Shown here: positions 15,062 through 35,399 of the stretch, piece after piece
How positions within the stretch are numbered: position 1 is the stretch's first letter
Layout: each line of letters opens with the position of its first letter
NCBI RefSeq assembly: GCF_000196655.1
Contig: NC_014253.1
Location: forward strand, 1,443,423 to 1,507,422
Source: Methanohalobium evestigatum Z-7303
GTDB taxonomy: Archaea > Halobacteriota > Methanosarcinia > Methanosarcinales > Methanosarcinaceae
Direction of reading: 5' to 3'
DNA: 64,000 nucleotides
The notes under the pieces: generated by a model
Seen by the model: only the letters and a program-made list of their open reading frames with translations
Database searches by the model: none
What the model was told of the DNA's origin: nothing
Made by a program: the position numbers and the translations under genes

Positions 15062-15135
15062 AGTGAGGAATTTAGACCCCATTGCTTAAAAGAACAAAAT
15101 TTTTTATTTTAGGAAAACATTATATATATAATACA

Positions 15136-16428
15136 ATGAAATTCACCACCAAAAACTATCTACGGATGAACAAGCAGCAGTACTGGATAGTTGACACTTT
15201 GAGTAAACTATCCAAGAACCTGTATAATGTCGGGGTGTACAATGTCCGACAGTATTATTTCTACAATAACAAGTTCTTACCGTACACCAATAATTACCAT
15301 TATTGTAAAAATAATGATAACTACAGCCTGTTATATAGCGATAATGCTCAACAGGTTCTCAAAATCGTAGATAGGACTTTCAAGAGCTATTTCAGACTGC
15401 TCAAAGAAAGGAAAAAAGGAAACTACAACCGACCCATTAATACACCAGGTTACTTGGACAAAAATGGGCGGTTTGTATTGATATATCCCGCTCAAAGAAT
15501 GTCTATTAAGGGTAGATATTTCAAACTAGGCATGAGTAGGGAATTCAAAAAACAATATAATCTTAATGGTGATGAATTAACTTTCAAATTACCAGACCAT
15601 ATCAATCCTGATGAATTAAAAGAAGTCAGGATTGTTCCAAAACATGACGGTAAATTCTACCAGATTCAGTATGTTTATGATAAAAAACCACAAGACATGA
15701 ATCTGGACAAAAATCAATATCTATCAATCGATTTAGGTCTTGATAATTTTGCAACCTTTGTGGAAACATCCACAGGTACAGCCGAGATAATTGACGGTAA
15801 ACACATCAAATCCATTAACCAGTTCTACAACAAAGAAAAGGCAAAGTTGCAGGGTGTGAAAGACAAACAGAGTATGGAACACAAGTTCACCAAAAGATTG
15901 AGTAGGCTTACTAATAAGCGAGATAACAAGGTGGACGAGTTCCTGAACAGGTCGGTTGATTACATTGTTAAAACATGTATAGATAAAGACATCGGCAACA
16001 TTGTTATCGGTGAACTGAAAGAAATCAAACAGGAACAGAATATCGGTAAAAAGAACAATCAGAATTTCCAGAGCATACCATATTTCCTGTTCAAAAGTAA
16101 ACTACAGTCCAAATGTGATTTGTACGGAATCAACTACATAGAAGAGGACGAATCCTATACCAGTAAAACCGATGCACTTGCTCTGGAACCCATCAGAAAA
16201 CATGAAGAATATATGGGTAGAAGAATCAAGAGAGGACTGTTCAAGTCTTCCACCGGTCAATTGATCAATGCCGATGTCAACGGTGCACTGAATATCTTGA
16301 GAAAAGTAGTCGGTGATTCCATCCAAAGGATAACCGATAGAGGTCTCGTCAGCAGACCGGAGAGAATAAGGGTTACTTTCGAACCTGAAAAGCGACCAGC
16401 CTTCTCTCGAATTAAATTGTCAGTTTAA
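15136..16428 (+). CDS. tnpB: TnpB family protein (zinc-ribbon-less clade)
   Basis: About 430 residues from the ATG at 15136 (MKFTTKNYLRMNK); an in-frame TTG at 15082 would add 18. RuvC residues are Asp in LSIDLGLDNFA, Glu in IVIGELKEIKQ and Asp in INADVNGALNI. Where other TnpBs have a Cys4 ribbon this one has ESYTSKTDALALEPI...YMGRRIKRGLF, the form typical of a clade without zinc ligands. Expected to be an RNA-guided nuclease that maintains the element; the guide RNA would cover the region after 16428, including the right-end hairpin. The reading frame is intact. Confidence 0.9.
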   Translation: MKFTTKNYLRMNKQQYWIVDTLSKLSKNLYNVGVYNVRQYYFYNNKFLPYTNNYHYCKNNDNYSLLYSDNAQQVLKIVDRTFKSYFRLLKERKKGNYNRPINTPGYLDKNGRFVLIYPAQRMSIKGRYFKLGMSREFKKQYNLNGDELTFKLPDHINPDELKEVRIVPKHDGKFYQIQYVYDKKPQDMNLDKNQYLSIDLGLDNFATFVETSTGTAEIIDGKHIKSINQFYNKEKAKLQGVKDKQSMEHKFTKRLSRLTNKRDNKVDEFLNRSVDYIVKTCIDKDIGNIVIGELKEIKQEQNIGKKNNQNFQSIPYFLFKSKLQSKCDLYGINYIEEDESYTSKTDALALEPIRKHEEYMGRRIKRGLFKSSTGQLINADVNGALNILRKVVGDSIQRITDRGLVSRPERIRVTFEPEKRPAFSRIKLSV

Positions 16429-25058: not shown

Positions 25059-25133
25059 CGGGCGTGAAGGGATTTGAACCCTTGGTTTACAGCTTAGGAG
25101 GCTGTCGCCATGTCCTGACTAGGCCACACGCCC
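25059..25133 (-). tRNA. tRNA-Arg (anticodon CCU)
   Basis: The minus strand folds as a complete cloverleaf: acceptor GGGCGTG/CACGCCC, D-stem GCC/GGC, anticodon stem ACAGC/GCTGT with loop CTCCTAA (anticodon CCT, reading AGG), and T-stem AAGGG/CCCTT with loop TTCAAAT. No CCA is encoded after the discriminator G, and there is no intron. A TTTAAAAAT element about 25 bp upstream (near 25155-25165) could be its TATA box. Confidence 0.97.
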
Positions 25134-25750: not shown

Positions 25751-26443
25751 ATGGTTTGTATTTCAATTGATAAAGAATTATTGAATAAACAGTATGAACA
25801 ATGGGAGAATGTCTACACAGAACACAGTGAAAAATTTGGTAATATGCCCAGTATTTTTGCCATGGAAACCATCAAGTTATTAAAAAAGGAAAATAAAAAC
25901 CGAATACTTGAGTTGGGTGGTGGTCAAGGGAGAGATACCATTAATTTTGCACAGAACGGTTTTAAAGTCGATGTGGTAGATTATACAAAAAAAGGTATTG
26001 AAATAATTAAAGAAAAATCAAGATATCAGGGATTAGCCGAATATATAAATCCTGTCCAGCATGATGTCAGAAACCCACTGCCTTTTGAAGACGAAACTTT
26101 TGATGGATGTTATTCTCACATGCTGTACTGCATGGCATTAACCACCTCAGAACTTCAATTTATCACAGATGAAATCTGGAGAGTTCTAAAACCCGGAGGT
26201 CTTAATATATATACTGTAAGAAACAAAAATGACATCAGATACGGAACGGGTATAAATCGGGGAGAAGACCTTTATGAGATAAAAGACGGTTTCATTGTAC
26301 ATTTTTTTGATAAAGATAAAATTAAACATCTCTCCAGAGGTTTTGAAATTGTAGATATTGATGAATTTGAAGAAGGGATTTTACCGAAAAAACTGTATCG
26401 GGTTATCCTCAAAAAAATAAAGGGAGATTATAATCCGCAATAA
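25751..26443 (+). CDS. Class I SAM-dependent methyltransferase
   Basis: 230 residues with motif I RILELGGGQGRDTINFA, the acidic motif DVVDYTKKG and motif VRNPLPFEDETFDGCYSHML, the standard SAM-binding Rossmann layout. The C-terminal half has LKPGGLNIYTVRN. Substrate unknown; similar proteins in archaea are annotated only as UbiE/Tam-like. GGGGG lies 4-8 bases before the ATG. Its 3' end overlaps the convergent mtmB-like gene by about 15 bp. Confidence 0.85.
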   Translation: MVCISIDKELLNKQYEQWENVYTEHSEKFGNMPSIFAMETIKLLKKENKNRILELGGGQGRDTINFAQNGFKVDVVDYTKKGIEIIKEKSRYQGLAEYINPVQHDVRNPLPFEDETFDGCYSHMLYCMALTTSELQFITDEIWRVLKPGGLNIYTVRNKNDIRYGTGINRGEDLYEIKDGFIVHFFDKDKIKHLSRGFEIVDIDEFEEGILPKKLYRVILKKIKGDYNPQ

Positions 26444-27798
26444 TCTTCAATTTCTGATAATATGCTTTTGTAAAGATTTATGTATTCATCTGTAGGTTCC
26501 ATATCGTATTCGGAATTAACCACATAGCATTCATCGAAAGGTTTTCCTGTTGGTGGATTAGTGAATCTGTCTTTATATTTGGAATAAATTTTACTGACTA
26601 TGTCATTAGCTTCTGAAAGATTTAGATCTGTTGCCATATGGGCTATTTCAGCCATGAATCGGGATTCAAGACCTGTTGAGTGGTCAGCAGTTCCGCCACG
26701 TGCACCGGCAGGACCTATAAGGATGTCTCTACCACTAACAGTATCTGCTATTGCCTGTGCTGCAGTTTCATAAAACATCATATCTGTGCAGCAACCTGCC
26801 TGATTCCAATAATATCTGGCTTTATAGTAATTCATATTACGTGAAAGTGCTATAGATGACAGACTGGATGCCCAAATTACTTCTTTTGTAGATGATGAAT
26901 TGGTATTTACATGTATGGCACCCGAAACATGGAAACTGGCACCGGTAACAATTTTTGCCTGTATGGTTTCTGCAACATCAACAATCGCAAGTCCTGGTGC
27001 AGATGCAATTGATGTCCCTCCGAAAATGGGACACTGACCTGAAAGGTAGTGGTTTCCATGTTCCTGATGATATATGGATTTATAAAATGTTTCATAATCA
27101 GTTTTCAATTCATCCAGCTGGGAAACTTCTTGAGGGTCGGATTCTGAATATAATTCATCAGCTGATACAAGCATATATGCCTGCGAAATTGTAGGTGTTC
27201 CGGGACCCATCAAAGCAAGACCCTCTCTGCCTGCTATTCTGGTTGACAGTTTTTCCAGTCTTGCTTCTTTCAATGCCGCATACATCTCAAACGGGCTTTT
27301 CGGTTTTATCCCTTTACCTTCCAGCTTATCAATCACACCAGCATAAATCCCCTGCACAAGTGGCTCTCTTGCAGAACTTAAATGAACGTTAAGAAAATTT
27401 TCTTCAGAAACTGTTCCACCCATTGGTCCTCCTATAATAACAGGCGGTGTTGAATCCACTGGACATCTTTCAGGAACAGGTACTTTTTCTCTGTATTTTC
27501 CGATTTCGAGTTCTTTAAGTGAATAAATCGATTTTAAAATGTCATCTTTATCAACCGGTATAATTCTTTCAGTATCTATACAGTAAACACCTGTAGATGA
27601 TAAAAGATCTATTCCCGCTTCAAAAACCGAATCTGCAAGTTCATCGTCGTCCGGCACAAATGACTCATTATCATATTTAATATCATATTCCTCTGCCAGC
27701 TCTTCAGCTTTCTGGAATACTTCCATATCATGCTTTTTTTCTTTTTTCTGTTCACCTTCAGTTGCTGCTTTGAGATAATTGTACAACTGCTTCATCAA
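26428..27798 (-). CDS. MtmB family methyltransferase homologue without pyrrolysine
   Basis: 456 residues, close to MtmB (458). Colinear family blocks include EVSQLDELKTDYETFY, CPIFGG, ADTVSGRDILIGPAGARGG, STGLESRFMAEIAHMA and TGKPFDECY. In Methanosarcina MtmB the active-site Pyl202 is encoded by an in-frame TAG within GRPGMGV-Pyl-GPET. Here the aligned stretch is GREGLALMGPGT with an ordinary ATG (Met197, codon 27210-27208). The acidic GGIEET segment is also replaced (GGTSIASAPG). The protein therefore should not be an ordinary monomethylamine methyltransferase; it may use another methyl donor, as non-Pyl MttB homologues do. No corrinoid protein gene is adjacent; an iron/corrinoid-type ABC importer is divergently encoded. 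Confidence 0.88.
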   Translation of the reverse strand: MMKQLYNYLKAATEGEQKKEKKHDMEVFQKAEELAEEYDIKYDNESFVPDDDELADSVFEAGIDLLSSTGVYCIDTERIIPVDKDDILKSIYSLKELEIGKYREKVPVPERCPVDSTPPVIIGGPMGGTVSEENFLNVHLSSAREPLVQGIYAGVIDKLEGKGIKPKSPFEMYAALKEARLEKLSTRIAGREGLALMGPGTPTISQAYMLVSADELYSESDPQEVSQLDELKTDYETFYKSIYHQEHGNHYLSGQCPIFGGTSIASAPGLAIVDVAETIQAKIVTGASFHVSGAIHVNTNSSSTKEVIWASSLSSIALSRNMNYYKARYYWNQAGCCTDMMFYETAAQAIADTVSGRDILIGPAGARGGTADHSTGLESRFMAEIAHMATDLNLSEANDIVSKIYSKYKDRFTNPPTGKPFDECYVVNSEYDMEPTDEYINLYKSILSEIEDYCGL

Positions 27799-28004
27799 AT
27801 CACCTATATCTTATTCATTTTCAATTATTTATATAATCACCACATTACAATTCTGTTTTAATAATTTTGTTTTGTTAACGCTTTTCATACAATGTCCAAC
27901 ATAGATGGCATTTAGTGTTACGAATGAATAAATTTATATGAATAAACAAGCATATCCAAAAATAAAGATAACAACCATAATAAACCAGATAAAGTAGAGG
28001 ATAT

Positions 28005-29120
28005 ATGATGAAGAAATGGATAGTTGCAACAATGGTAATAATGATATTAATTATCTGTACAGGTACCGGTTGTATAGATAATACCAGTGCAGGAAGTGAA
28101 AAAGAAAATTCTAGCACAGTAACGATTACAGACAGCCTTGGTAGAGAAGTCGATGTGCCTAAAAACCCCGAACGAGTTGTAGCTCAGGGACCGGGAGCTC
28201 TTAGATATCAATGTTATCTCAACGCTCAAGATAAAGTAGTAGGTGTGGAAAGCATCGAATTAAGAGAAGATGAAAACAGACGTCCTTACAGGATAGCAAA
28301 TCCTCAGTTGAAAAATAAACCCCTGATTGGTGAATACAGAGGTAATACTGACCCTGAAAAAATTGTTTCAGTAAATCCTGAAGTCATTTTCTGGACATAT
28401 GTAACATCACCCGATGATGCAGATAAACTGCAACAAAAAACTGGCGTCCCTGTAGTTGCCCTCAATTACGGCACACTGGGAGTTCACCGTGATGAAATGT
28501 TCAAGTCTCTTAGGATAATGGGTGATGTGTTAAATAAAGAAGAGAGGAGTGAAGATGTCATCCAGTTCTTTAATAAAACAATTAAGGATTTGAACAAACG
28601 AACCAATAATATTCCAGAAGATGAAAAAAGAAGCGTATACATAGGTGGTATCGCTTATAAAGGTTCACATGGCTACCAGTCAACAGAACCAGCGTATCCA
28701 CCATTTGATTTTATAAACGCAAAGAATGTTGCCAGTGATATGGGAACAGATCATGCTGATGCATCAAAGGAAGCTATTATCGAATGGGACCCTGATATAC
28801 TATTTGTAGATTTGTCCACCTATGATGCACAGCCATCAGCTGTAGAACAACTTAAAACCGACCCATCCTACCGCTCACTTACAGCTGTAGAAGAAGGAGA
28901 AGTCTATGGAGTACTTCCATACAACTGGTACACCAAGAACTATGGTACTGTACTGGCAAATGCATACTATCTAGGAACTGTGATTTATCCTGAAAGATTC
29001 AGTGATATCAATCCTGAAGAAAAAGCCAACAAAATCTATGAGTTCTTGGTATCAGAACCTGTATATGAAGATTTGGAAAAAGGATTTGGACGTGGTTATG
29101 GAAAAATCCCGGTTAATTGA
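28005..29120 (+). CDS. Iron-complex type ABC transporter, substrate-binding lipoprotein
   Basis: 371 residues: lipoprotein signal with lipobox TGTGC (Cys ~24), then a TroA/FepB-type fold (TVTITDSLGREVDVPKNPERVVA, VNPEVIFWTYV). It would bind an iron complex, haem or corrinoid outside the cell. Permease and ATPase genes follow on the same strand and a DtxR-like regulator closes the cluster, which favours iron. A TATA-like AAATTTATATG near 27925 and the sequence ATATCCAAAAAT near 27952 precede it; the latter resembles half of the operator-like palindrome before the regulator. Confidence 0.88.
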   Translation: MMKKWIVATMVIMILIICTGTGCIDNTSAGSEKENSSTVTITDSLGREVDVPKNPERVVAQGPGALRYQCYLNAQDKVVGVESIELREDENRRPYRIANPQLKNKPLIGEYRGNTDPEKIVSVNPEVIFWTYVTSPDDADKLQQKTGVPVVALNYGTLGVHRDEMFKSLRIMGDVLNKEERSEDVIQFFNKTIKDLNKRTNNIPEDEKRSVYIGGIAYKGSHGYQSTEPAYPPFDFINAKNVASDMGTDHADASKEAIIEWDPDILFVDLSTYDAQPSAVEQLKTDPSYRSLTAVEEGEVYGVLPYNWYTKNYGTVLANAYYLGTVIYPERFSDINPEEKANKIYEFLVSEPVYEDLEKGFGRGYGKIPVN

Positions 29121-29191
29121 TAAGTTTTAACGCTCATTTTCCTTTTTTCCTTTCTAATTTTAGTTTAATATTACTTTAGCAGGGTGTCAGA

Positions 29192-30286
29192 ATGGATTTC
29201 ATGGACAAAAAAATGGATATTAACGAAGATGTAGAAAGCATCCCCCTGAATTATAATAAATACGTCAAAAAGAAGATTACATTTATCCTGATATCTTTTC
29301 TGTTTCTTATAACAATATTCTTCTATTCAATATCAGTGGGTAACGCCAATGTCCCCTTGAATGATGTTTTCCGGGTTTTACTTGGTCAAAATATAGAGAA
29401 TTCTTCTACTATTATTTGGAATATACGTCTCCCACGGGCACTTGCTGCAATTTCTGCTGGTGTGGGTCTATCTGTATCTGGTGTAGCCCTACAGTCCATA
29501 TTACGAAATCCTCTCGGTTCACCCTACACGCTTGGAATTTCCAATGCAGCTGCTTTTGGAGCCGCTTTTTCAGTGATAATACTTGGTGCGGGTTCCATGC
29601 ATAGTACCGGAGCAGGTGCTGTAATTATTAACAACCCATATATAACTACAATTGTGGCTTTCCTCTGGTCTCTTGTTGCAACTTTCATGTTACTGGCAAT
29701 ATCAAAATATAAAGGCGCATCACCCGAGGTTATGATTCTTATAGGAGTTGCATTGTCGTCACTATTTACAGCAGGGACAATGTTTCTTCAGTACTTTGCC
29801 GATGATGTAGAGCTTGCAGCAGTAGTATTCTGGACTTTTGGGGATGTAGGAAGAGCGGACTGGGGAGAACTCGGTATCATAACCGCGGTAGTTGTCCCTG
29901 CAATGATTTATTTTATTCATAACAGATGGAATTACAATGCTATCGATGCCGGTGATGAAACTGCAAGAGGGCTTGGTGTTAATGTAGAAAGGATAAGGCT
30001 CTGGGGTATGCTTCTGGCATCCTTTGTAACAGCTATTATAATATCATTCCTTGGAGTAATCGGGTTTATAGGATTAGTGTGCCCCCATATAGCACGCCGA
30101 TTCATCGGAGATGAACAGCGTTTTCTTATACCTGCTTCCTGCATAACAGGTGGATTGCTTTTGCTGGCATCTGACACTGCTGCACGTTTGATGCTCTCGC
30201 CTCATGTGTTGCCTGTTGCGATTCTTACCTCGTTTATGGGTGCTCCTCTGTTTATCTATCTACTGGTAAGGGGGTATAGACATTGA
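29192..30286 (+). CDS. Iron-complex type ABC transporter permease (FecCD/BtuC family)
   Basis: 364 residues with a short charged N-terminus and about ten membrane helices. Family motifs: NIRLPRALAAISAGVGLSVSG, NPLGSPYTLGISNAAAFG and GFIGLVCPHIARRFIG (the ATPase-coupling loop). It forms the membrane channel of the importer. It overlaps the ATPase gene by 4 bp (ATGA), implying translational coupling. GGGTG precedes the ATG. Confidence 0.93.
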   Translation: MDFMDKKMDINEDVESIPLNYNKYVKKKITFILISFLFLITIFFYSISVGNANVPLNDVFRVLLGQNIENSSTIIWNIRLPRALAAISAGVGLSVSGVALQSILRNPLGSPYTLGISNAAAFGAAFSVIILGAGSMHSTGAGAVIINNPYITTIVAFLWSLVATFMLLAISKYKGASPEVMILIGVALSSLFTAGTMFLQYFADDVELAAVVFWTFGDVGRADWGELGIITAVVVPAMIYFIHNRWNYNAIDAGDETARGLGVNVERIRLWGMLLASFVTAIIISFLGVIGFIGLVCPHIARRFIGDEQRFLIPASCITGGLLLLASDTAARLMLSPHVLPVAILTSFMGAPLFIYLLVRGYRH

Positions 30287-31038
30287 TGATGGATGTCGAT
30301 AATCTGGAATTTAACTACAAATCAGGAAATGTCCTAAAAGATATAGGGTTTGAATTGTATCATGGAGAAATCCTTGCAATTCTAGGACCCAATGGAGTTG
30401 GTAAAACTACACTGCTTCGTTGTATTAACAACATTCTCCCTCCAAAAAAAGGAATAATAAAAGTTGAAGATGAAGAAATCCTGTCGATGAAAAACGATGA
30501 GATAGCAAGACGTTTGGGATATGTGCCCCAACGGTCCGAAGTTGGAAGACTTACTGCTTTTGATGCAATCCTTCTTGGCAGGAAACCACATATGGGATTT
30601 CATGTAAAAGATAAAGATATTAAGATTGTTAATTTTGTTATTAATAAACTTGAACTTGAAGAACTGTCTCTTCGGAATATAAATGAATTAAGTGGAGGAG
30701 AACTGCAAAAGGTTATGTTTGCAAGAGCTCTGGTGCAGGAACCAAAGGTATTGCTTCTTGATGAACCAACAAGCAGTCTTGACCTTAAAAATCAGCTTGG
30801 AATCCTTAAAACCGTAAGACAAACAGTGGATGAAAACCAAATATCTGCGGTTTTTACAATGCATGACCTAAATCTTGCACTACGTTTTGCAGACCGATAT
30901 GTTCTTGTTAAAAATGGAAGGGTATTCAAGCACGGTGGAAGTGATATAATAACACCTGAAAACATAGAACAGGTCTATGAAGTAAAAGTTGATGTGGAAT
31001 ACATAAATGGTTACCATATTGTTATACCCAGTGATTAA
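30283..31038 (+). CDS. Iron-complex type ABC transporter ATP-binding protein
   Basis: 251 residues with Walker A GPNGVGKTT, Q-loop VPQR, signature LSGGELQKV, Walker B VLLLDEPTSSLDL and switch His in TMHDLNLAL. This is the FecE/BtuD-type ATPase that powers uptake with the two preceding gene products. Complete. The regulator gene follows with its own promoter-like sequence. Confidence 0.94.
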   Translation: MMMDVDNLEFNYKSGNVLKDIGFELYHGEILAILGPNGVGKTTLLRCINNILPPKKGIIKVEDEEILSMKNDEIARRLGYVPQRSEVGRLTAFDAILLGRKPHMGFHVKDKDIKIVNFVINKLELEELSLRNINELSGGELQKVMFARALVQEPKVLLLDEPTSSLDLKNQLGILKTVRQTVDENQISAVFTMHDLNLALRFADRYVLVKNGRVFKHGGSDIITPENIEQVYEVKVDVEYINGYHIVIPSD

Positions 31039-33796: not shown

Positions 33797-35020
33797 TTAA
33801 ATCTGTATTTGTTGGGTTAGTGTTGTGCATCTTGCTGAGATTCTCCTGCAGTTTTTCTTAACGTTTGGGTTTTTCTTGGAAGTATTTCCGAATATATCCA
33901 TGATGCTGAAGTTACCTGATGTTCTTTTCCCTTTGACGAATCCGGAAACATATGGAGTTTCGATGAAATCGAATTTCTTCAATCCGTGGAGTTTTCCTGT
34001 TGGGATTTTCTTCTCGGATTTAACACCTTTAGTTTGCTGATAGTCACCTTTATTGACGTGTTTTTTATAATACACTACATTAGATAGTTGTAAATTCGGG
34101 TTATTCTCATCACAGCAGATTGCTACTGCATCGTTGTAGTGGGTTTTTTCCAGTTTTAGTTTCTGTTCTCTCTTGTACTTGGTTATGTACCCGAAAGTTT
34201 CCTGAAACTTCCAATTAAGCTTTCTTATCTGCGACCTGACAATACCCATCTCAGTCGGGTGTTTCGTGTTAGATGGATTTTTGTTTATACTGAACTCACC
34301 CTTGTGCAGTTTGCTGTGACAGGTTTCGCAGAGAGTGATTAGATTGTTAGGTCTGTCAGTACCACCTTTACTTCTGAATATGATGTGGTGACATTCTAAT
34401 TTCGGATCTTTTGATTTGTTCTTGCATTTTTGACAGGTATAGTCATCTCTGTGCAATACATAGATTCTAATGTTGTAGTATCCTTTCAGGTCACCATTCT
34501 GGTAACCTGTACCAGAAACATTTGGATTCGTGATTTTGTGTATGTCAAATGAAGTAGTTTCTACTATCCATTTCTTGACAGGTAGGATGGATTCAACGAA
34601 TCTTCTTTCTCTTTCGTGGGACTGCACTTTGCTCTTGATGGATGGTGCAATCCTGTTTTCTTTCTTGGAGTTACCTCTGTTGTTGAATCTCGGCTTTCTG
34701 TATCTTGTCTTTCTGTATCTTCTGTTCATCCTGTGATCAGCTCTATCTTTCATCTTTTTGGATACATCATCTCTCAATTTGATTTCTGACTGGTACATGA
34801 CTTCGTCGTTAGCAACAGCTGCACATCCGATGTATTTAGAACCGGAATCCATTCCGGCAATTACTGGCTGGGTGTACTCAGTTGTTTCGTAGAGTAGTTT
34901 GATAGAGAATGGAGTTCTTCTGACGACCTTGGCTTTACCAGATTTCAGCAATCTTCTGGCTTTAGCAGGTCTTGTGGGCATTAACGGTTTCTTATTTTTG
35001 CTTAATACATAAACATGCAT
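33797..35020 (-). CDS. iscB: IscB RNA-guided nuclease (RuvC plus HNH)
   Basis: 407 residues. The N-terminal PLMP domain shows KPLMPTRPAKARRLLKSG. RuvC-I follows (IAGMDSGSKYIG), then an Arg-rich bridge helix (RRYRKTRYRKPRFNNRG), RuvC-II (WIVETTSFD), an HNH domain with CQKC...CHHIIFRSKGG and LCETCH (~residues 195-235), and RuvC-III (HYNDAVAI). This is the complete IscB architecture, ancestral to Cas9; both nuclease sites look intact. It would cut both strands of a DNA target chosen by an omega RNA encoded upstream. AGGAGG sits just before the ATG at 35020. Confidence 0.94.
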   Translation of the reverse strand: MHVYVLSKNKKPLMPTRPAKARRLLKSGKAKVVRRTPFSIKLLYETTEYTQPVIAGMDSGSKYIGCAAVANDEVMYQSEIKLRDDVSKKMKDRADHRMNRRYRKTRYRKPRFNNRGNSKKENRIAPSIKSKVQSHERERRFVESILPVKKWIVETTSFDIHKITNPNVSGTGYQNGDLKGYYNIRIYVLHRDDYTCQKCKNKSKDPKLECHHIIFRSKGGTDRPNNLITLCETCHSKLHKGEFSINKNPSNTKHPTEMGIVRSQIRKLNWKFQETFGYITKYKREQKLKLEKTHYNDAVAICCDENNPNLQLSNVVYYKKHVNKGDYQQTKGVKSEKKIPTGKLHGLKKFDFIETPYVSGFVKGKRTSGNFSIMDIFGNTSKKNPNVKKNCRRISARCTTLTQQIQI

Positions 35021-35029
35021 TTGTAATTC

Positions 35030-35245
35030 CTCCTCATGGGAGTTGTGCGTAGGTCAGGACTGTCGGGTTCAATCCTGACTTCCGACTTCCTCTCGACCGG
35101 AGTACCAGAGGTTTAAAAGTACAGCCACTGTTCCTACTCCGCCAGAACTGTTTAGACTGCATTCTCAGAGCAAGGGACTGAGGCGGCATCCCAGGGTGAC
35201 TACTGTTGTATTCTCCGGTATCGTTTACTGGACTTTTTTCTATTA
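35030..35245 (-). ncRNA. Probable IscB omega RNA
   Basis: IscB omega RNAs are transcribed just upstream of iscB. This interval is GC-richer than its surroundings and holds several inverted repeats. A clear hairpin GTCAGGA/TCCTGAC spans 35053-35079; its loop contains GTCGG (35062-35066), which can pair with CCGAC (35082-35086) to form a pseudoknot, a feature known in omega RNAs. The 5' boundary, where the guide would lie, is estimated. Confidence 0.55.
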
Positions 35246-35310
35246 TTATTAACATATATAACCCATATCCAGTGGTCTGGTCAACCAGGAACTTGCTTTA
35301 TGAAAACAAG

Positions 35311-35348
35311 CTCCTTCCTCAAACTGAAGCATTCGCTTCAGTTAAGGA
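35311..35348. repeat. Left-end hairpin of the IscB element
   Basis: Perfect 9-bp stem AACTGAAGC/GCTTCAGTT with loop ATTC (35322-35343), extended by CTCCTT/AAGGAG. A smaller CTGG-TCAA-CCAG hairpin lies near 35277-35288. They resemble the subterminal structures of single-strand transposons. Confidence 0.6.
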
Positions 35349-35399
35349 GGGGTAGTTGACTGTAAGCCTCATCAATACTATCAAATATTTCCAAAGATT

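Follow-up and report, generated by a model that had tools for sequence, protein, structure and literature searches.

We analysed a stretch of 64,000 nucleotides from Methanohalobium evestigatum Z-7303 (the window), in which one gene encodes a 455-amino-acid homologue of the monomethylamine (MMA) methyltransferase MtmB that has methionine at the position of pyrrolysine (Pyl) and that belongs to a clade of its own. We propose, with a probability of roughly 0.55, that this protein is a methyltransferase that depends on a corrinoid but not on Pyl and that acts on a methylated amine other than MMA, most likely a quaternary and possibly a tertiary one. It is one of the remaining non-Pyl MtmBs, whose function was left as unknown in the description of MtqB (PMC13044021), so its subfamily, although still to be characterised, is of a type already known.

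The open reading frame first described at 26428-27798, on the minus strand, is present and ends in TAA. We prefer the ATG at 27795 as its start, because an AGGTGAT motif is spaced just upstream of this codon, whereas the alternative TTG at 27798 directly touches the motif (Table 1). With this start, the ATG that faces the pyrrolysine TAG of mtmB encodes Met196; the initial annotation had located the codon correctly but numbered the residue 197. There is no in-frame TAG anywhere in 26428-27795 and, hence, no Pyl at another position.

Table 1. Gene, codons of interest and flanking genes, in window coordinates
Feature	Coordinates	Strand	Basis
Non-Pyl MtmB-superfamily methyltransferase gene, 455 aa	26428..27795	-	profile, pairwise, fold (pLDDT 94.7, TM 0.94 to 1nth)
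AGGTGAT, likely ribosome-binding site for ATG 27795	27799..27805	-	sequence
ATG (Met196) at the Pyl202 TAG position; barrel strand 194-197 of the model	27208..27210	-	alignment, model
Gly253 codon, opposite MtmB Glu259 (Gly in 47/54 clade members)	27037..27039	-	coordinate computed from ATG 27795
Tyr328-Tyr329-Trp330 codons, opposite MtmB Gln333-Tyr334-Tyr335; clade-typical aromatic motif	26806..26814	-	coordinate computed from ATG 27795
Convergent neighbour with class I SAM methyltransferase domain; 16-base overlap with the 3' end of the gene; probably unrelated	25751..26443	+	domain match
Divergent ABC importer genes, Fe-siderophore/vitamin B12 type (binding protein, FecCD permease, ATPase)	28005..31038	+	domain matches

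The protein matches the Pfam MtmB profile (PF05369) over its full length (E 9.1e-198, 658 bits against a cut-off of 25) and M. barkeri MtmB at E 1e-83, with Met196 facing Pyl202 of structure 1l2q. Its AlphaFold2 model superposes on the MtmB crystal structure 1nth with an rmsd of 1.6 A (Table 1), and the methionine sits in a barrel strand, as does Pyl202 in MtmB (PMC9842639). Alignment and structural mapping thus agree in placing it within the MtmB superfamily and fold, which bears out the initial annotation of an MtmB homologue. A profile search with PF06253 (the MttB/MtgB superfamily, COG5598) did not match the protein: MtgB and other non-Pyl MttB homologues (2qne, 9yce) share with our proposal the idea of a Pyl-free TIM barrel for quaternary amines, but they belong to a different family, with a TM-score of about 0.54 for MttB and MtgB and 11% identity.

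The ATG is not due to an absence of Pyl from the host. Its genome (two contigs, 2,406,232 bp) contains two TAG-containing mtmB genes, each with a corrinoid gene upstream, as well as a TAG-containing mttB, away from the window; together they indicate that Pyl is used there and rule out a host without the Pyl system, and tRNA-Pyl is recorded for M. evestigatum (PMC3639795). This mttB is the sole PF06253 gene of the genome, in which the profile search found no non-Pyl MttB, and which also encodes RamA and several corrinoid proteins. On the second contig, a BCCT transporter gene (L138, G000:C2:127525-128979) is broken by one in-frame TAG, and is either a pseudogene or an instance of Pyl read-through.

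Using the window protein as a query, we retrieved 52 loci from 47 of 112 Methanosarcinaceae genomes at 55-100% identity, below which there was a sharp fall to TAG-bearing MtmB at 34-38%; clade members and Pyl-MtmB share 28-37% identity. The clade occurs in Methanohalobium, with a MAG of this genus as the nearest named relative (97%), Methanococcoides, Methanolobus, Methanohalophilus, Methanosalsum and two deeper MAGs (some genus names are putative), whereas all 31 genomes of the family putatively assigned to Methanosarcina lack it. Pyl is absent from the aligned site in 54 of 54 clade sequences, and dN/dS is 0.04-0.05 within Methanococcoides and 0.08 when the copies of the two Methanohalobium genomes are compared, which is far beyond chance; the clade is under strong purifying selection. 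The L108-L109 pair does not enter these values, as L109 had been read in a wrong coding frame.

An unrooted maximum-likelihood tree of 52 sequences resolved four groups, each with a bootstrap of 100 and an SH-aLRT of at least 98: Pyl-MtmB, MtqB-like proteins, another non-Pyl group and the window clade (100/98). The search for other non-Pyl MtmB proteins and the tree therefore agree on a separate clade, although the branching order of the four groups is not firmly settled. Constraining the window clade with MtqB gave a tree 16 log units worse (p-AU 0.065), so that a sister relation is not formally rejected, and constraining it with Pyl-MtmB was only marginally worse (p-AU 0.075). The expression "methionine in place of pyrrolysine" in the initial annotation is right for the residue but implies a loss, and an unrooted tree with an unsettled order of families is compatible both with a loss of Pyl in this clade and with its gain in MtmB.

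Lacking an in-frame TAG and falling into a separate clade, the window protein is not a Pyl-MtmB. It shares with MtmB the fold, a full-length alignment and Glu229 (MtmB numbering, also below), which is kept in 51 of 54 clade members, but differs in that its gene lies outside any mtmCB operon and in several pocket residues. Site 202 is Met in 43 of 54 clade members and otherwise Leu, Phe, Val or Ile. Glu259 and Gln333, both invariant in 50 Pyl-MtmB sequences and which we take to lie near Pyl, are replaced by Gly (Table 1) and by Tyr (52/54), respectively, and Tyr335 by Trp (49/54); residues 325 and 336 of the clade are both Asn. Tyr333 is common to the MtqB-like proteins (6/7) and is found in none of the 50 Pyl-MtmB. 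The initial annotation also pointed to a change in the GGIEET segment (269-274), which is indeed ASAPGL in the window protein, but E272 is retained by 47 of the 54 clade members; the E259G and Q333Y replacements in the pocket are more telling. A subgroup linked to BCCT genes diverges at key sites, with K229 or H/R335, and its substrate may thus differ from that of the window protein.

The only functional precedent is MtqB, a non-Pyl MtmB homologue from Methanococcoides methylutens Q3c, reported in 2026 to demethylate tetramethylammonium and choline, with activities of 37 and 42 nmol/min/mg, respectively, and 11 nmol/min/mg on MMA (PMC13044021). The statement in the initial annotation that Pyl is essential for methylamine activation is, therefore, not absolute. 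Our comparisons use as putative MtqB orthologues the products of L088 and L089, chosen because they come from a Methanococcoides-type genus, are encoded directly downstream of a corrinoid gene and contain the conserved Cys and Met; they are 77% identical, and MtqB shows 78-87% identity among strains (PMC13044021). Like the window protein, MtqB belongs to PF05369, lacks Pyl and has Tyr333, and its type of partner, MtqC, adjoins one member of the window clade (L043). However, the window protein is at most 33% identical to the MtqB-like proteins (L088, L089, L090), and both clades are separate and strongly supported. The MtqB-like proteins show Cys259-Met260 (7/7), columns that we infer to match the conserved Cys/Met of the published MtqB logo, and mostly Leu229, as opposed to Gly259-Gln260 and Glu229 in the window clade, and mtqC lies directly upstream of mtqB, whereas the window gene has no such neighbour. 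We thus reject, on clade, identity, signature residues and neighbours, that the window protein is MtqB. The analogy with quaternary amine enzymes made in the initial annotation is strengthened by the MtqB precedent, although the window protein lies outside the MtqB clade. The other non-Pyl group (L091, L092, one in L093, L094-L096, L099, L100, L102 and L103) also belongs to the MtmB superfamily, but its archaeal members form a separate clade with about 32% identity to that of the window.

The window gene stands alone between its convergent and divergent neighbours (Table 1), and the adjacency to the ABC importer was seen in Methanohalobium only. No B12-binding (corrinoid) gene exists within the 64-kb window and, hence, neither mtmC nor mtqC lies beside the gene. 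Likewise, no corrinoid partner could be assigned in the host genome: its one orphan methyltransferase-type corrinoid protein (C1:980754-981407; L140:7755-8408) does not track the clade and was rejected, since outside Methanohalobium its close relatives (about 60%) are mainly in one genus that lacks the clade. The window also contains a tRNA gene (25059-25133, minus strand; Rfam, 66.9 bits), an OrfB_IS605 (TnpB-type) transposon protein gene (15082-16428, plus strand) and a gene for an IscB-like RRXRR and HNH protein (33800-35020, minus strand), which together with an adjacent HEARO RNA match (35081-35360, minus strand; 84.5 bits against a cut-off of 83) makes up an OMEGA-type nuclease unit.

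In relatives, mtbA adjoins the clade gene in some two dozen Methanolobus-type genomes (NF041608 match of 681 bits, cut-off 600), and many of these mtbA-linked genes are also convergent with a Pyl mtmB-mtmC pair; clade genes of Methanohalobium and Methanococcoides are not beside mtmB. Six genomes have a BCCT transporter gene next to the clade gene in divergent orientation, and the outer flanks of this pair are of three different kinds. The L043 gene of M. bombayensis is the only clade member to follow a corrinoid gene of the MtqC group (100/99 support), at a distance of 45 bp. As far as gene order can tell, all three settings suggest that methyl groups are transferred from amines. Methanolobus bombayensis contains three clade paralogues (L043, L045 and L053) in three settings: with the MtqC-like corrinoid gene, with mtbA and mtmB, and with a BCCT carrier. 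Two other neighbours were set aside: the corrinoid protein encoded after the clade gene in L041 groups with MttC, so that its gene probably opens a TMA operon, and the MFS protein encoded next to the Methanosalsum member resembles lactate carriers and lends no support to quaternary amines. In Methanococcoides and one Methanohalophilus-type genome (L149), the genes after the clade gene encode an Orc1/Cdc6-type protein and a hydantoinase-like ATPase (L035, L036, L039, L147-L149, L152 and L153), which suggest no mechanism; a relative of the hydantoinase-like gene adjoins other non-Pyl MtmB genes too (L093, L081).

In the mechanism that we propose, the window protein would be the MtxB component, on an MtmB TIM barrel, and would bind an activated methylated amine other than MMA directly, replacing the Pyl adduct, in a pocket that would no longer have Glu259 and Gln333 but would have acquired a hydrophobic side chain at 202 and the Tyr-Tyr-Trp aromatic motif. 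A corrinoid protein whose gene lies elsewhere would accept the methyl group on its Co(I), and MtbA would then transfer it to coenzyme M. The MtmB family and fold, the purifying selection and the wide distribution of the clade argue for this proposal, as do the MtqC-like, mtbA and BCCT neighbours, the Tyr333 shared with MtqB-like proteins, the MtqB precedent itself and a host with RamA and several corrinoid proteins but no non-Pyl MttB. Counting against it are the lack of an adjacent corrinoid gene or of an assignable partner, the divergence of the BCCT-linked subgroup and some growth data. M. mahii, which carries a BCCT-linked clade member (L110), fails to grow on choline or betaine (PMC3017947), and the recorded growth substrates of M. 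evestigatum are limited to methanol and methylamines (PMC3017947); glycine betaine is consumed by a bacterial partner. Also, Q3c produced MtqB as its sole non-Pyl methyltransferase on QMA, choline or TMA (PMC13044021), so that any clade orthologue there is not induced by these substrates. Even so, a methyltransferase different from MtmB, as anticipated in the initial annotation, is the best reading of the missing Pyl, the separate clade and the pocket changes.

The most serious alternative, which we consider unlikely, is that the protein works as a corrinoid methyltransferase but takes the methyl group from a compound that is not an amine, such as a methylated sulfur, methoxy or halogenated compound. 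This fits the growth failure of M. mahii, and a non-Pyl MtmB-superfamily protein was the most induced protein on dichloromethane in 'Ca. Formimonas warabiya' (PMC9768040); however, in relatives the gene adjoins amine genes (mtbA, mtmB, mtmC) or that of a BCCT carrier, and the sole characterised homologue uses amines (PMC13044021). Less probable still is a slow Pyl-independent MMA methyltransferase, or a paralogue assisting MtmB, e.g. in nitrogen supply, as might be suspected from the convergence with mtmB-mtmC in Methanolobus-type genomes and the weak MMA activity kept by MtqB, because nearly all clade members have other residues where the MtmB pocket has Glu259 and Gln333, and mtmB is not adjacent in Methanohalobium or Methanococcoides; deletion of pylT in M. 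acetivorans ends growth on methylamines (PMC2933860), but this genus lacks the clade. The stand-alone window gene and the methylamine operons nearby in Methanolobus would also suit a non-catalytic MtmB-like sensor or regulator of methylamine genes, an idea to which we give slightly less credit because the protein has no extra domain and the barrel, the pocket motif and many of the residues invariant in the family are conserved. Finally, a decaying MtmB duplicate, as the missing residue, held essential in MtmB, might suggest, is hardly credible with a frame intact in more than 50 loci and dN/dS values of 0.04-0.08, which rule out a pseudogene.

MtmB homologues without Pyl were already known by 2010 at the latest, and MtqB provided their first function in 2026 (PMC13044021); to this known phenomenon, our results add, as far as we are aware, the delineation of a subfamily, its pocket signature and its gene neighbours. 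They also expose a trap for annotation, because proteins of the clade match MtmB models in spite of missing the catalytic residue. Beyond our proposal for the window protein, it is conceivable, if somewhat short of an even chance, that the clade is a second, independent Pyl-free line on the MtmB fold, which acts on a substrate new to methanogenesis, is common among methylotrophic methanogens, both halophilic and marine, and has split into subgroups that pair with an MtqC-type corrinoid protein, with MtbA or with a BCCT carrier. If our proposal is true, the same barrel with and without Pyl would offer a second test case for the role of this residue and, should the clade demethylate a quaternary or other methylated amine, many salt-loving methanogens could make methane directly from compounds for which bacterial partners are held to be necessary.
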